Positions 1 to 6,618 of a stretch of 6,757 nucleotides of DNA are shown piece after piece (the first letter of the stretch is position 1; each line of letters opens with the position of its first letter). The notes beneath the pieces were generated by a model. The model saw only the letters and a program-made list of their open reading frames with translations, was not told where the DNA came from and ran no database searches. A program made the position numbers and the translations under genes. This stretch comes from a bacterium (lineage in GTDB: Bacteria; JACRDZ01; JAJRWM01), in contig JAJRWM010000163.1 in NCBI GenBank assembly GCA_024276815.1, positions 1 to 6,757 on the forward strand, given 5' to 3'.

Positions 1-746
1 CTGAATTTATGAGCGGTTAAACCACCCATCTCAAGGAAATAGAGATAATCATCATCGTTTTCATTCGCCAGGAACATTCCCATTCCTTTCAGGAACTTAT
101 AATCGGAGAACCCCGCTAAAGCAAAAATTGTCCTGGAATTATCGAGGTTACAAGCGTAAATGCTTTCGTACCCAAAACACGACAACAATAAATTGTCGTC
201 TATGAAGCAGCCACTGTAAATATGCCTGGTACAATCAATAGGGGAAAGTGGCCTTATTCGTGGAGTCTTCTTTTCATACTTGATTTCTCCGACAAGAATT
301 TTATTCGCCCCCCAATCGAAAAGATAAACCCTCTCCTCTTTGATTAAAAGATCCGTGAGCATTATTGGTTCACCGCAAAAGGCTTCACAAATAAAACCAC
401 CCGCGGGATTAAACACCTGTAAGCGACGGTTACCACTATCGTTGACAAACAGGTTACCGTGGCTGTCAAGCTTAATGCCGGTTGGCTTGCTTAACTGCCC
501 GGGCTCCGTCCCAGGGCGACCAATAAATCTCAGGGGGGCGCCATTGTTTCGCATAACCTGTATCCGGTGGTTCAGCCGCTCGCTGATATAAAGCTGGTCG
601 TTTGGCCCAAGCGCGATCCCCCAAGGCCCACCCAGTTGCCCTTCGTTATTGCCGGGTTCACCAAAAGAACAGACATATTTACCCGAAGTTTCATATTTAT
701 TAATGTTATTCTGGCTTATATTCGTGATGTAGACATAGTCCTTTTC
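1..746 (-). repeat. C-terminal NHL blade array, running to the window edge
   Basis: Blades in the leftmost open frame lie near residues 438-464, 476-512, 525-560, 563-592, 611-647 and 655-685 (counting from 2057). The second and third are canonical (SERLNHRIQV, NDSGNRRLQV) with the usual GQLSKPTGI linker. The later three keep the strand pattern but lose the NHR motif. A six-bladed propeller would be nearly complete at the edge, so the missing 3' part is probably short unless another domain follows. Confidence 0.75.
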
Positions 747-2021
747 TGAGGCGCCGCCATTTAGATATTCAACCATTTTGCTTTTATCCGGCTTTTCAAA
801 CGTGGTAACCGGTTCGAGCAAATATTCCAACTCACCAGGCAAGGAGTAACGCTTTTTTATTAAATACTGGTTTGAAGGATTGAGCCGGTAAATGTTCTTT
901 AAGTAAACAGGATCACCGCTGGAGTGATGAAGCCTGGTAAATATTTCCTCTTTTTGATTATCTATGGCCCGGTGTAACCAATCAGCGTAGATTACAAACT
1001 GGGGACGGATCTTGTTAACTTCGGCTTTTTCCCATAAAAAAAGATATTTTTCCATGGCTTTTTTCTGGCGCTTGGCAATCATTAACGAACTGCTTAAAAT
1101 CGTCAGTTTCTCGCCATTGCGGATAAAGTCGTCATTAATTATTTGCCACTTCCCATTCAGCTCTTTATACCAACCCTCGATTTCGTTCAGGATTTCAGCG
1201 GCATTCGGAATATGTGCCATTGATGAATCCAATGTTCTGAATAATCGATGCCACAATAATATGTTTAAACGAATCCCTTCCGTGAGTTTATTCTTAAGCA
1301 AGGTCCACTGCCAGGCGGTACCGGTCTTCTTGTCCTTCAGCGCGTAGTATTTTTTTTGATTTAAGAGGGGGTTGACATCCATCTCCAGCAAGCCCATCAT
1401 CTCGGCGGCCTTTTTTTCCTGTTCTAAGTAACCGGCGAACGCCTGTTTCTCCAGCTCGATTAGCGCGTTGGCAAATCCCCTGATATTTTTCAGGTAAGTA
1501 TTATCAATATTGAGCGAAGCGGTCTTTAGTTGATTGAGTTGAGCCGCCCACAGTTTTTTAGTTTCTTCATCACGGTTAATCAGGATATCCAAGATGAGCT
1601 TTGAGGTGAACTTTTCTTCCCTCTCCGGGCTAATGGTTCTCAGATTTTCAAGAAATCGCGGCAGGTCTCTTGAGAAAGACGGATGTAAACGCCAGAACTG
1701 GACAAAAATGTCGTCAGCGGTGAAAATACATTTAGACCCCCGGTTTTTTTCGCAGACAGATAAATAAGCGTCTGCCAACCGATGCCATTTTTCCAGCAAG
1801 CTCCGGATTTGTTGGCTATCGGCGTCAAACAGCCGCTCAGTTTTCTTGAACACAAGGGCTTGCTTGCTGTTGTTCGCGTTCCCGGCGGCCAGCAGTTTCT
1901 CCAAATCAACCAGGCACCCCTTTTTCTTTGTCCGGAAGACAACCAATCGGTTGCTGATACCCAAAAGCTCGTTTTCCAGATTGTTTCCCGCTTCGGATAA
2001 ATTCTCTCCCTCGTTTACCAA
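1..2021 (-). CDS. Helical plus C-terminal NHL-propeller protein, or the 3' half of the preceding gene (partial, start uncertain)
   Basis: The frame is open from 2057, directly after the TAA of the preceding gene, to the left edge: 685 codons without a stop, so the 3' end is missing. Counting from 2057, residues 1-430 are alpha-helical and rich in K, E and L, with no recognised family. Residues about 438-685 form a second NHL-type propeller, with blades such as QLYISERLNHRIQVMRNNG (about 488-506) and LFVNDSGNRRLQVFNPAGG (about 536-554), then more divergent blades. The first ATG is at 1400, inside a helix at codon 220. The coordinates use the earliest plausible non-ATG start, TTG at 2021, but no Shine-Dalgarno precedes it; TTGs at 1964 and 1904 are alternatives. 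Because it continues the upstream frame, it may instead be the second half of one protein split by a nonsense codon. That the frame encodes protein is clear from the NHL blades; how it is translated is not. Confidence 0.7.
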   Translation of the reverse strand, partial: MVNEGENLSEAGNNLENELLGISNRLVVFRTKKKGCLVDLEKLLAAGNANNSKQALVFKKTERLFDADSQQIRSLLEKWHRLADAYLSVCEKNRGSKCIFTADDIFVQFWRLHPSFSRDLPRFLENLRTISPEREEKFTSKLILDILINRDEETKKLWAAQLNQLKTASLNIDNTYLKNIRGFANALIELEKQAFAGYLEQEKKAAEMMGLLEMDVNPLLNQKKYYALKDKKTGTAWQWTLLKNKLTEGIRLNILLWHRLFRTLDSSMAHIPNAAEILNEIEGWYKELNGKWQIINDDFIRNGEKLTILSSSLMIAKRQKKAMEKYLFLWEKAEVNKIRPQFVIYADWLHRAIDNQKEEIFTRLHHSSGDPVYLKNIYRLNPSNQYLIKKRYSLPGELEYLLEPVTTFEKPDKSKMVEYLNGGASEKDYVYITNISQNNINKYETSGKYVCSFGEPGNNEGQLGGPWGIALGPNDQLYISERLNHRIQVMRNNGAPLRFIGRPGTEPGQLSKPTGIKLDSHGNLFVNDSGNRRLQVFNPAGGFICEAFCGEPIMLTDLLIKEERVYLFDWGANKILVGEIKYEKKTPRIRPLSPIDCTRHIYSGCFIDDNLLLSCFGYESIYACNLDNSRTIFALAGFSDYKFLKGMGMFLANENDDDYLYFLEMGGLTAHKF

Positions 2022-2057
2022 CTCGATTAAATATTTTATTTTGATTGCTTGTTGCGC

Positions 2058-2060
2058 TTA
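2058..2060 (-). other. In-frame TAA separating two open frames that continue each other
   Basis: The TAA ending the NHL gene is followed in the same frame by GCG CAA CAA GCA ATC AAA and 679 further sense codons. The residues on both sides (ISGLNDNL, then AQQAIKIKYLIELVNEG) read as continuous amphipathic helix. One substitution, such as CAA to TAA, would create this stop. The following base gives TAAG, and I see no recognised readthrough signal next to it. It could be a true terminator between two genes, a nonsense mutation or an assembly or sequencing error. Confidence 0.6.
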
Positions 2061-4628
2061 AAGGTTATCGTTCAATCCCGAAATAGCGGTGGCCAACAGG
2101 TTCCAGCCGTTTCGGGCCGCTTCCAGGTACAGGTTGGTGCCCGGCCTGACGTAGCCCCACCGTTCAACTTCCTGCTCGCTGACATACTCCCACTTGGCCA
2201 GTTCGTTAACGGCTTCCTCACGCTTTTTATACATAAGGTCAAGATGTTGTTCCGTTGTTTTTTCCCAGGCCGGCTCGTTAATGCCGCTGAGCCTGGCCAG
2301 GAGTTCTTCCCGCTCAGCCGCGGAAAGGGTCAACAGAAAAGCGGCGGAATCTTCCTCGATTTTCAGGTAAAAAGCAAACAGCCTGTTGACCCAGAAATCA
2401 GCCTGCTGGTAAAAACACCTGGACAATTGAAGCGCCCAGTCGGTTAAGGAAGCCTGCCGTTTAGCCAGGATAATGTCCCGCTTTTTCTCTTTTTTAGTGA
2501 TTTTAATGGTGTTCTTTAACTGCGCGCTTCTTTTTAAGCCGTCGAGGTGATGGCTGTAATTACTCAGCATCCGGCCCTGCCAGTGCTCAACCAACTTGAC
2601 CAGAGAGAGCTTGACTCGTTCGAGTTCAATGTAAGTGTCGGAATCAGGCTTCAGCCTTTCCTCCGCCGTTATTTTGTTGGTTAATAACTGGACGATCAAC
2701 AAGGGCCGCTCAGGAGAGAAGGGCGGCTCCAGTTGTTTTACCAGGCTGGCAATCGCTCGCGGCAATTCACTCTCCGGTAAAGGCGAAACCTTCAGCCAGT
2801 CTTTAAGCAGCGCGAACTTGCTCAGCAATTTTGCCAACTCTTGAGGTTCCTGGCTGAAATAACAGCAGAGCCGCCCAAAGTTCGCCAGAATGGATTCCTG
2901 GATATCAGCAGCGATCGTCGGGGCGGAAGAAGCCCGGAAAATTGTCGCGAGGCTGTCAATTATCAAACAGCAAATCTTGCCTCTGACAGCGTTTACCGCA
3001 CGCTCGTTGGTAATCTGCCGCCGGGCCAGGTAGATGTCGGACCAGGCGATAGCGGCGCCTTTCTGGGTAAACTTTTTTTCCCAGTTAACCAGGGTGTCCA
3101 AATAATAGCGCCGGCATAATTGTGACCAGTCGTCCAGCAGTTCAGCCAGATACCCGGCCAGCGGGCCGCCAAGCCGATTCATTAGCTCCGAGAGAACGTC
3201 AGGGTTGATACGCTGAGTTATCTTGCTGAGCAAAAGCCAGGTCTCTTCAATTTCAACGGCTGTTTCCCTGATTTTCATCGCTAGTTGACGGGAGCGTTGT
3301 GTCAGCAACTCCTGCTCCGCGACTAAAGAGTCCGTCGCCGCTTTTTGGCTTAATGTTTCCTGTTCGTAAGTCGCTCTTGTTTGCGCCAGTTCCCGGTTGA
3401 GGACAAGCGCCTCCCGATAATAGTCAGCCATTTGAGATATCAGGGCTTTACTGGCAACTATTATCTTTTGCGTAAGAACCGGCAGGTGCTTTTTCACTTC
3501 CCGCTCATCAGGGAACTTCGTCAGATAATTCAAATAGTGATAGTAACCCGGCAGATAATCAGGCGAGCCGTTAATCAGCTTCTGATAAATTCTTTTTGCT
3601 TCGTCATAATCCCCGGTTGTTTCCAGATGAAGAGCGTATTTTTGTAAAGCAAGCGGTTCCGCGGCTGGTTGGCCGGTCAGCGACGGATAAACTTGTTTCG
3701 GGGTAGCTTCGCTCAAGCGGAACAGGAGAATGCGGTGATTAAAGCTGTCGCACAAATAAAGCTGGTCCTCACAAAACAATAATCCGCCCGGGAAGCGGAG
3801 CGAACCTTCGGCCCCGGGAAGCTGTTTCCAGTTATTGACAAGGACCCCTTCGGGGGTAAGCTGTTTCAGGCTGTGCTCCTGCCCGCTGTCAGTTAAAAAA
3901 ATGAATCCTTGCCGGCTGGTGATAATTGAATCGACCCGGGTGTTTTGGGGTAGCGGAAGATAGGCCACAAAATAACCGTCAGCCGTTGTCACCGCGATGC
4001 GCTGATTATTGGGGTCGGCGATTAAGATCAGTCCGTCACGAGCGACGGAGACAGACCCGGGGAACTCAAAATGGACCTCGCCCTGATATATTGTATTTTC
4101 TAAAGCAGGACGAGTTAATTTGCTCAGATTAAAAGCTTTTTCTTCCGAGAGCGAGGAGCGGGAGCCGAAAGTTTTAATCAGCTTTCCCTCGCCGCTGGTT
4201 TTTACGATCCGGTGATTGCCGCTGTCAACGATAACCAACGCGCCGTCGTCCAGGACCGCGACATCAGCCGGTTCATTAAGCGACCAGGAACCCCCGCCTT
4301 TTATTGCCAGTATAAACTGACCTTCCGCGGTTAACTTCTGGACTCGATGGTTGCCGCTGTCAGCGACCAAGATATTACCTGAGGTGTCAACGGCTAACCC
4401 CTTGGGATAAATAAATTCTCCGTAGCTTTTGCCGTTTCGGCCGATCACTCGCAGGAACTTACCGTTCGAGGACAGCTCAACCAGCCGGTGATTCATCTCG
4501 TCGCAGACAATGAAATGCTCATTGGCCAGCTTGATAACGCTCGCGGGACAGAGCGGGGGATTGCTGACAGACAGATCTATTTCTTTTATTAATTCCAGCG
4601 AAACGCGCTGGTCTGTTTTCAAGGTCAT
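2058..4628 (-). CDS. NHL-repeat beta-propeller protein with TPR-like and coiled-coil helical region
   Basis: This 856-residue protein has no signal peptide or membrane helix, so it is probably cytoplasmic. Residues about 30-304 hold six NHL-type blades with signatures such as DEMNHRLVELSSNGKF, ADSGNHRVQKLTAEGQF, VDSGNHRIVKTSGEGKL and CDSFNHRILLFRL, consistent with a six-bladed propeller. Such propellers usually bind proteins or other ligands and show no catalytic signature here. Residues about 327-375 (LETTGDYDEAKRIYQKL) look like a TPR hairpin. Residues about 400-468 form a probable coiled coil, and the rest to 856 is charged and alpha-helical, with no family I recognise. The ATG shares one base with the Maf stop (TGATG) and is preceded by AAGGTGAT, a good Shine-Dalgarno match inside the Maf gene, so translation is probably coupled. 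The frame stays open after the TAA for the whole rest of the window, so the true protein may be longer. NHL identity is well supported; the cellular role is unknown. Confidence 0.88.
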   Translation of the reverse strand: MTLKTDQRVSLELIKEIDLSVSNPPLCPASVIKLANEHFIVCDEMNHRLVELSSNGKFLRVIGRNGKSYGEFIYPKGLAVDTSGNILVADSGNHRVQKLTAEGQFILAIKGGGSWSLNEPADVAVLDDGALVIVDSGNHRIVKTSGEGKLIKTFGSRSSLSEEKAFNLSKLTRPALENTIYQGEVHFEFPGSVSVARDGLILIADPNNQRIAVTTADGYFVAYLPLPQNTRVDSIITSRQGFIFLTDSGQEHSLKQLTPEGVLVNNWKQLPGAEGSLRFPGGLLFCEDQLYLCDSFNHRILLFRLSEATPKQVYPSLTGQPAAEPLALQKYALHLETTGDYDEAKRIYQKLINGSPDYLPGYYHYLNYLTKFPDEREVKKHLPVLTQKIIVASKALISQMADYYREALVLNRELAQTRATYEQETLSQKAATDSLVAEQELLTQRSRQLAMKIRETAVEIEETWLLLSKITQRINPDVLSELMNRLGGPLAGYLAELLDDWSQLCRRYYLDTLVNWEKKFTQKGAAIAWSDIYLARRQITNERAVNAVRGKICCLIIDSLATIFRASSAPTIAADIQESILANFGRLCCYFSQEPQELAKLLSKFALLKDWLKVSPLPESELPRAIASLVKQLEPPFSPERPLLIVQLLTNKITAEERLKPDSDTYIELERVKLSLVKLVEHWQGRMLSNYSHHLDGLKRSAQLKNTIKITKKEKKRDIILAKRQASLTDWALQLSRCFYQQADFWVNRLFAFYLKIEEDSAAFLLTLSAAEREELLARLSGINEPAWEKTTEQHLDLMYKKREEAVNELAKWEYVSEQEVERWGYVRPGTNLYLEAARNGWNLLATAISGLNDNL
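3717..4541 (-). repeat. N-terminal NHL blade array (six blades)
   Basis: Six degenerate blades of about 35-70 residues each (spacers included) follow the pattern P-x-G/D-hydrophobic-x-V-x(4)-G-x-hydrophobic-x-V-x-D-S-x-N-H-R-hydrophobic. They fall near residues 30-62, 75-110, 120-154, 190-224, 232-266 and 280-304. At the DNA level the second and third blades still share the run TTGCCGCTGTCA (plus-strand sense, about 4216 and 4350), which encodes the DSGN core. Blade 5 (DSGQEHSLKQL) has lost the NHR triad. An insertion of about 35 residues lies between blades 3 and 4. Confidence 0.85.
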
Positions 4629-4646
4629 CAGGAGACCATCACCTTT
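4626..4646 (-). promoter_or_regulatory. Coupled stop/start with internal ribosome binding site
   Basis: The Maf stop and the NHL start share one base in TGATG. AAGGTGAT, a strong match to the anti-Shine-Dalgarno complement, lies about nine bases upstream of the ATG, within the last Maf codons (K-V-M-V-S). This fixes the NHL start and indicates co-translation of the two products. Confidence 0.8.
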
Positions 4647-6502
4647 CCCAAAGCCGCTTCAAAGTTGGGGCGCATAAAATCAACCGCCTTGATAACGCTT
4701 TGATAAAAATCATGATAATTTTTGCTGGCTTTTTCCAGGATTTCCGGGGAAGCGGCATTGCCCTCGATCGAAGACTGGAAACGCAGGAAACGATAGCGTC
4801 CCTTTTGGTTTGCCATGATTAGAAAGGGCGTCAAATCTTTCTGTTGATTGATAAAATCGATGATTTTGTTCATGTTTTGATAAACCGGCTGGCTTTTTTC
4901 CAGATCATCTTTCAATTTACCCAGTTGAACGGCTAACTTTAATCCCGATTGACAGCGCTCCTTAACTTCAGCCATTTCACTCAAAACCTGATTCAAGGCG
5001 GCGGCCAGCGGCTCTTTTTCGGGCGGCGCGTTTTTCTCATAACATTCAGCCAGAACGGCCGGGACATCCAGCGGCTCACGGCAAAAACGATAAACGGCTT
5101 CTTTCAGGCTGATCACCCCAAGCCCCTTCGCCTCCAAGACTCCGCCCTCCGTCGCGTTGTAACAACGTGCCCGGGTTTTCTTTACTTCTTCCTCAAACCA
5201 TTTGCGGTAGGCGTACAACTGCTGGTTGGTCACCACGCTTTTACCATCAATACCGGTAGCCTCCCGGGTTTTGTCGATGGTGATAAAACCTTCATGGATA
5301 TCCTCAAGGGGAGCGAATCGCTCATAGTCATAGAGCCAGGTCTTTTCCCAGTGGGTATTATGACAATATTTGCGGTTGCCGGAAAAGGAAAGGTCCTGCC
5401 CCACCATGATTATCGGATCGCAACCCAGTTTTCTGGCCAGGTCGAATCCCATGGTCGAAATGGAACCCCAGGCCTGCAAAAAACCGGGGTCGCCGACAAA
5501 CCGGGTAAGCCATTCCATCATGACATCCCTGAAGGTGGTGATAAATTTTCGTCCCCGGTAATTATGAATAATCGCCGGGTAGGTCATCGGCTCGGCGATC
5601 AGGTAGGTTTCGCTGGCGTCAACGCCGACCAGATGCTGATAATTGTCTTCCAGCGGGTCGGCCGCGATTACGATATGCGGCTTGATATCATTGGCGAGCA
5701 AGGTTTTAAACGCCGTTTCGACGCAGATCAGGACGGCCCGGTCGCCAATCCCTTTAAGGAGATGAATGTTTTTGTCCAGTGACGGCCCGGCGGAGATCAG
5801 GAATCCGGGCTTGCCGGTAAATTTATTAAAGATACTTTTTACCGGCGGGTTTTTTAAAATTTCGTCCAGGTTGTCCAGAGTGTTCATCTGGTAATCGGCC
5901 CCTGAAAGCATCAGCGTCAGGAGGTTGCCGCCGGTGCGGACAAAAATACCCCGGACCGCTTCGGCGAGTGGGGAAAAGTACTCGGCCATGATTTGTTTTG
6001 AAATAGGATGCTCGATAATCGCGACTTCCCTGAGGCTGCTGAAGTCGATAATCCTGGTTAACTGATTGGTAATATTGTCAATTGGTGCACAGATAAAGAA
6101 ATAGATATCGGGCGACTTGATAAATTTTTCCAGGTCAAAAAGCTCCAGGGCCAGCTTGAAAAACGCCAGTTGAGGCTCGATCACCACAATTTTTTTCTGC
6201 CAGCCCACTTTTTTGACCAGTTCAAACAGCGGGTATCCCAGGCCCATGCCCATCAAGATAAAAAAGTTGGCTTGTTCGGCGCCGGCCTGGCGATTTACCA
6301 GAGTGGCCGCCTCTTTAAGCGGGTCGTACTTGCTGTGGATGAGTTGGGAATGCTCCGCCAGCTTGATCCGCATGGTCGGCAGACCGTTTTTGGCGGGAAA
6401 GACCTCAACATTCTTGATCTTGATCTGCCCCAGCTTGGCGGCCAGCTTGACATACCTCTCCTGTGAAGCTAGCGCCTGGTGGTTTTTCTCGTAAAATGTC
6501 AT
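4628..6502 (-). CDS. Maf-family (DUF115/MptE-like) motility-associated glycosyltransferase-type protein
   Basis: The product is 624 residues, a usual length for motility-associated factor (Maf) proteins. Members of this family transfer pseudaminic or legionaminic acid to flagellin in the cytoplasm before export. Numbering from the chosen ATG, the N-terminal domain carries GMGLGY near residues 85-90 and VVIEPQ near 106-111. The central Rossmann-like DUF115 core carries ISAGPSLDKN (about 236-245), IAADP (about 279-283), WGSISTMGFDLARKLGCDP (about 345-363) and MVGQDLSFSG (about 366-375). NATEGG follows at about 449-454, then a helical C-terminal domain. No signal peptide or membrane segment is seen. 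The start at 6502 is preferred because MTFYEKNHQALA resembles family N-termini. A 34-residue extension to a TTG at 6604 is possible, but it covers the predicted 5' UTR and looks non-coding. The stop overlaps the next gene by one base. Family assignment is firm; the donor sugar and acceptor are inferred only from the family. Confidence 0.93.
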   Translation of the reverse strand: MTFYEKNHQALASQERYVKLAAKLGQIKIKNVEVFPAKNGLPTMRIKLAEHSQLIHSKYDPLKEAATLVNRQAGAEQANFFILMGMGLGYPLFELVKKVGWQKKIVVIEPQLAFFKLALELFDLEKFIKSPDIYFFICAPIDNITNQLTRIIDFSSLREVAIIEHPISKQIMAEYFSPLAEAVRGIFVRTGGNLLTLMLSGADYQMNTLDNLDEILKNPPVKSIFNKFTGKPGFLISAGPSLDKNIHLLKGIGDRAVLICVETAFKTLLANDIKPHIVIAADPLEDNYQHLVGVDASETYLIAEPMTYPAIIHNYRGRKFITTFRDVMMEWLTRFVGDPGFLQAWGSISTMGFDLARKLGCDPIIMVGQDLSFSGNRKYCHNTHWEKTWLYDYERFAPLEDIHEGFITIDKTREATGIDGKSVVTNQQLYAYRKWFEEEVKKTRARCYNATEGGVLEAKGLGVISLKEAVYRFCREPLDVPAVLAECYEKNAPPEKEPLAAALNQVLSEMAEVKERCQSGLKLAVQLGKLKDDLEKSQPVYQNMNKIIDFINQQKDLTPFLIMANQKGRYRFLRFQSSIEGNAASPEILEKASKNYHDFYQSVIKAVDFMRPNFEAALGKVMVS

Positions 6503-6570
6503 CCGTTGATTCCCATCTTTGAATAGAAAAAACTTATCATATTTCAAGCGATACCGCAATGAACTATCGT

Positions 6571-6597
6571 TTGCCCCAGGAGCGTGATCCAGGGCAA
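6571..6597 (-). promoter_or_regulatory. Stem-loop in the predicted 5' leader
   Basis: TTGCCCTGG (6597-6589) can pair with CTGGGGCAA (6579-6571) around a nine-base loop. This gives nine pairs, two of them G-U wobble. No T-run follows, so it is not an intrinsic terminator. It lies within the predicted transcribed leader and could affect mRNA stability or protein binding. I recognise no known riboswitch or leader family. Confidence 0.4.
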
Positions 6598-6618
6598 CAG
6601 GCAAACTCCAAACAGAAC

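Follow-up and report, generated by a model that had tools for sequence, protein, structure and literature searches.

We consider it quite probable that the two long minus-strand frames of the window, the 6,757-nt stretch of DNA analysed here, are the front and rear parts of a single ancestral gene, about 1,549 codons long, which was cut by a premature stop through either sequence error or recent nonsense mutation. Full-length homologues with a single frame in genome groups from other phyla argue for one gene; the genome-wide excess of single in-frame stops makes readthrough or two separate genes less likely than a nonsense change or a sequence error. The product would have two terminal NHL beta-propellers joined by a long helical region that evolves fast. 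Its gene would belong to a locus of surface-glycan type, where it immediately follows one for a Maf/MptE-like glycosyltransferase. The single premature TAA would fall in the helical middle; at a low genome-wide nonsense rate, one such change would have struck here.

Frame organization and domain architecture

The window is the entire contig C89 of a draft genome (2.39 Mb, 246 contigs, 91% complete). Frame A, the front part of the gene, occupies positions 2061–4628 of the minus strand (2058–4628 including the stop) and comprises 856 codons from an ATG start. Frame B, the rear part, covers 3–2057 of the same strand, with 685 codons within the window, and is open to the contig end. The first-pass annotation had placed A (856 codons) and B (685 codons) in one register with a TAA alone between them, and the frame coordinates bear this out, the sole separator being the TAA at 2058–2060 (minus strand) in the context CTT TAA GCG. 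Contig C152 starts with the final 141 bases of the minus strand of the window as an exact overlap, and on this contig frame B closes 7 codons past the window, giving 692 codons followed by a TAA. This overlap comprises positions 1–141 of the window and 1–141 of L042, and a second contig pair (L103/L107) overlaps by the same length. Because these overlaps are exactly 141 bases, the genome looks like a short-read graph assembly. Across the 1,548 sense codons of A and B we found no second lesion, neither a further stop nor a frameshift, and the codon scores of both frames are ordinary (0.21 for A and 0.16 for B, genome median near 0.23). GC3 is lower in B (0.52) than in A (0.60) and the downstream contig is apparently AT-richer still, forming a local composition gradient.

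Both ends of the gene carry NHL repeats (PF01436) far above the Pfam gathering score of 20. The N-terminal propeller spans about residues 10–310 of A (positions 3699–4601, minus strand; E 1.1e-27, 95.1 bits), and in profile–profile comparison residues 22–352 of A match the relatives described below with 29% identity over 287 columns (hhalign E 7e-29). The C-terminal propeller extends from residue 431 of B to its end (3–767, minus strand; E 1.4e-11, 44.3 bits), where the first-pass annotation had also recognised NHL blades; its AlphaFold model is all-beta with about 22 strands, at low confidence (pLDDT 47). Between the propellers lie the helical part of A (residues 316–856; 2061–3683, minus strand), with helices in a low-confidence model, and the helical part of B (residues 1–430; 768–2057, minus strand), likewise in a low-confidence model. 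The former opens with a weak TPR-like unit at residues 327–363 (TPR_14, E 0.0076, below cut-off), and residues 188–328 of B give one weak match to the middle of the relatives (hmmsearch E 8e-4). AlphaFold sets a helix across the junction in the joined middle, at a very low confidence that lends it little weight (mean pLDDT 40) and does not establish the continuous helix suggested at first pass. An internal duplication relating the middle of A to that of B is unsupported, as profile comparison of the two gave nothing.

Single-frame relatives in other genome groups

Searching with A identified a 1,700-codon frame in genome G037, and all four genomes of its phylum-level group carry an uninterrupted frame of 1,700–1,724 codons, the other three being 47–50% identical to the G037 frame. 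A profile built from the frames of this group together with A retrieved shorter relatives in G069, G297 and G209. In the G297 group, dozens of genomes carry a single frame of about 1,060–1,270 codons that matches along its length, and five genomes in the group of G069 and G209 have one of 982–1,007 codons. In these three other genome groups the relatives show an NHL propeller, a long helical middle and a second NHL propeller within one uninterrupted frame of about 980–1,720 codons. The last 320 residues match the propellers of the window in all 26 fetched relatives, while the middle matches in none of them. A giant gene that had been split was among the options listed by the first-pass annotation, and it is this option that the 26 single-frame relatives support.

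No significant profile match was found between the helical middles, not even among the groups of relatives themselves. Because these regions cannot be aligned, the case at the junction is built on architecture and order rather than on residue alignment, and homology is not followed across the junction, which counts against the one-gene reading. Of the homologues sought at first pass, full-length single-frame relatives were found, but none aligns through the junction. Neither A nor B retrieved a relative in pattern scans across the contigs of 84,980 species, and a query of 386 genomes with the joined helical middle returned none beyond one weak TPR-like match, since the middle diverges too quickly. 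In none of the relatives examined did we find the two halves as separate genes, and homologues consistently encoded as two proteins meeting at this point, the case that the first-pass annotation would have taken as contradicting a single gene, did not appear. An apparent natural split in G418 proved to be a run of N, that is an assembly gap. Frames of 1,289–1,564 codons in G017, G041 and G051 were set aside, as they look unlike the family by eye and their neighbours differ. In the G338 relative (L190:6429-9065) the front propeller is interrupted by an in-frame TGA and the rear part is undetectable; this gene is probably a pseudogene or an error.

The gene shares with this two-propeller family (L047-L050, L142-L166) the N-terminal propeller, a middle without NHL match and the C-terminal propeller and, in several loci, neighbouring genes for glycosyltransferases or methyltransferases. 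The complete fetched members are single-frame, except for the damaged one in G338, whereas the gene of the window is cut by a TAA; we have therefore classed it as an interrupted rather than an intact member of the family. The nearest NCBIfam model, ScyF (NF035926), was matched with 72 and 105 bits, far under its cut-off of 350, and the present gene differs from ScyF and other NHL proteins in that its long helical middle is flanked by two propellers. No Pfam or NCBIfam model matched the family at full length, and we found no paper on such two-propeller proteins. With the gene model corrected as proposed, this family of giant two-propeller proteins is present in this phylum too; it is widespread, has a hypervariable helical middle and is encoded in glycan-type loci.

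Start signals and coding signal after the stop

An arrangement of two genuine genes would imply that the ancestral protein became two subunits in this lineage, with the halves associating through the helical region, and that translation of B begins at TTG 2021 or TTG 1904, coupled to that of A. We regard this as unlikely. Frame B lacks an ATG over its first 219 codons, as had been pointed out at first pass; the first one in frame lies at codon offset 219, position 1400. The first start-like codon after the stop is a TTG at 2019–2021 (minus strand, codon offset 12) without a Shine-Dalgarno sequence, and its duplex energy of +2.1 kcal/mol is weaker than that of 98% of internal start-like codons. 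The lack of a convincing ribosome binding site, also claimed at first pass, applies to this codon but not to the alternative TTG at 1902–1904 (minus strand), which has a fair Shine-Dalgarno sequence, AAGGGG (duplex energy −7.0 kcal/mol, best 3.4%). As the genome makes use of TTG starts, this second site counts in favour of two genes and against the one-gene reading. Against its use as the true start, the 51 codons from the TAA to TTG 1904 score as coding with 8.2 bits, compared with −12.2 ± 6.7 bits for stop-free shuffles (p about 0.001).

The first-pass annotation had further argued that the missing start adds weight to a single gene. A first ATG at least 219 codons into a long frame is in fact rare (4 of 400 long frames); in the combined start-signal score, however, the window ranks only 35th of 98 single-stop same-frame pairs, a start signal no worse than that of many such pairs, and taken by itself the missing-start evidence is therefore weak. 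Same-frame neighbours are also common, making up 69 of 241 same-strand pairs (29%), close to the chance expectation of about one in three given at first pass, and at least six same-frame pairs in the genome are truly two genes, such as S17/L14 and L9/DnaB. The 692 codons of B without an additional stop or frameshift likewise agree with a gene of its own. Two genes are disfavoured by the relatives, among which, with the G418 case an assembly gap, the split was seen in none, and by the many other conserved genes of this genome that are cut alike.

Interrupted genes elsewhere in the genome

Taking 0.95 Mb of the genome (roughly 40%), we fused same-frame neighbours over the intervening stop and compared the products with Pfam. 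Not counting the gene of the window, at least 14 conserved genes with a single in-frame stop each were identified in this sample. In 13 of them the stop lies inside one Pfam domain, namely in uvrB, an amine oxidase, glnA, FabK/NMO, gltD, HD, AAA_23, UbiA, AsnB, a YgiQ-type gene, a Na/H exchanger, a PilB-type gene and HAMP/MCP; the trigger factor is the 14th case. The loci concerned are L243 (C94), L110 (C9), L141 (C40), L115 (C14), L119 (C18), L230 (C72), L231 (C73), L246 (C97), L122 (C20), L258 (C110), L131 (C29), L240 (C91) and L140 (C39). As a control, S17/L14, trpD/trpC and L9/DnaB were recognised as true two-gene pairs. A TAA interrupts the only glutamine synthetase found in the genome; no such stop is present in the main copies in G001 or in the long fragment in G002. 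On the simplest account, single nonsense changes arise genome-wide at a low rate of about 5 per 100,000 codons. Two genes appear to be split by a frameshift, a DegT aminotransferase (L210:2291-3435) and a DUF1385 gene (L105:9455-10392), evidence that genuine decay or errors of another sort are present as well.

Because many conserved genes are cut alike, the TAA in the window is probably an error or a recent mutation and not the sign of a new mechanism, and most likely it arose as a nonsense substitution in the same way as the other in-frame stops of the genome. Long-standing decay is made less likely by the single lesion in each gene and by the presence of core genes among those hit. Between the two origins, a sequence-level error in a metagenome-type assembly is somewhat favoured over a recent real nonsense mutation. 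It counts against an error that consensus substitutions are usually rare in short-read graph assemblies. Were the stop real, the cell would make the 856-residue front half, and the rear half through weak re-initiation or leaky readthrough only. Given its many in-frame stops in core genes, split genes in this draft genome are not to be taken as biology without the reads.

For several of the interrupted genes, solved homologues reveal which residue was lost. Glu occupies the stop position in UvrB, FabK/NMO, GltD, HD and the best GlnA matches, while the PilB relative has Lys; the same-phylum copy of GlnA in G001 has Val, and the stop sites of UbiA, the trigger factor and the exchanger are uninformative in this respect. 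Glu thus accounts for 5 of 6 informative stops against an expected 18–22% (p about 0.001–0.002), a count that comes from few sites and distant homologues. Judged from these alignments, the lost Glu codons point to G-to-T changes (GAA to TAA, GAG to TAG). Oxidised guanine or a mutator causes G-to-T changes.

The Glu pattern bears also on the idea of readthrough or recoding, in which an amino acid, presumably Glu, would be inserted at premature UAA or UAG codons, yielding the full 1,549-residue protein and others too. At least 14 conserved genes that are intact but for a single stop, among them the only glutamine synthetase found, and Glu as the most frequently replaced residue would fit such a mechanism, but a plain G-to-T error or mutation bias yields the same pattern. 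The interrupting stops include TAA, TAG and TGA, and all three also terminate ordinary genes (346 TAA, 196 TAG and 258 TGA among predicted gene ends); stop codon reassignment is thereby excluded. The 16 tRNAs in the 0.95 Mb sampled include no suppressor, and no structure was found downstream of the stop in the window (fold z +0.87). Conserved in-frame stops with dN/dS below 1, that is stops kept under selection, have been reported in bacteria (Belinky et al. 2021, PMC7918605), and readthrough therefore retains a small probability, although we hold it to be distinctly unlikely. The present case resembles the premature stops described there in having a single stop in an otherwise intact frame, and differs in that a single draft genome shows many stops at once with a Glu-to-stop bias. 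Should the stops prove real and the proteins be made at full length, this would amount to evidence that a bacterium uses stop readthrough on a large scale.

That the gene is an established pseudogene, decaying alongside a wider gene loss because its protein is no longer needed, appears very unlikely to us. The in-frame stops together with at least two frameshift splits in the genome would be in line with decay, as would the damaged relative in G338; opposed to it are the ordinary codon scores of A and B, the 1,548 sense codons free of a second lesion, and the core functions among the interrupted genes, of which the only glutamine synthetase found is an example. Context-dependent stop decoding, by which premature UAA and UAG (perhaps also UGA) would be read mostly as Glu in many conserved genes while all three still serve as true ends, so that the giant protein arises by readthrough, is highly improbable.

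Locus context

Upstream of A lies a Maf/MptE-like glycosyltransferase gene at 4628–6604 on the minus strand, with a likely ATG start at 6502. Its product matches PF01973 (E 7.5e-43) and PF20157, Maf_flag10_N (E 4.8e-08), and scores 97 bits with the PseD-like model of NCBIfam, under the cut-off of 670. The TGA of this gene overlaps the ATG of A (TGATG), and A is therefore probably translationally coupled to it. Three methyltransferase genes follow B on contig C152. Among the relatives, locus L048 has methyltransferases on both sides of the family gene, and other loci contain frames that by eye appear glycosyltransferase-like and radical-SAM-like. From these neighbourhoods we infer that the two-propeller protein may act as a scaffold in surface glycan or flagellin modification. 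MptE-like genes are present in the family-positive genomes checked and absent in G001-G003, where the family gene was not found. In the single-contig genome G297 the family gene and the MptE-like gene are located far apart.
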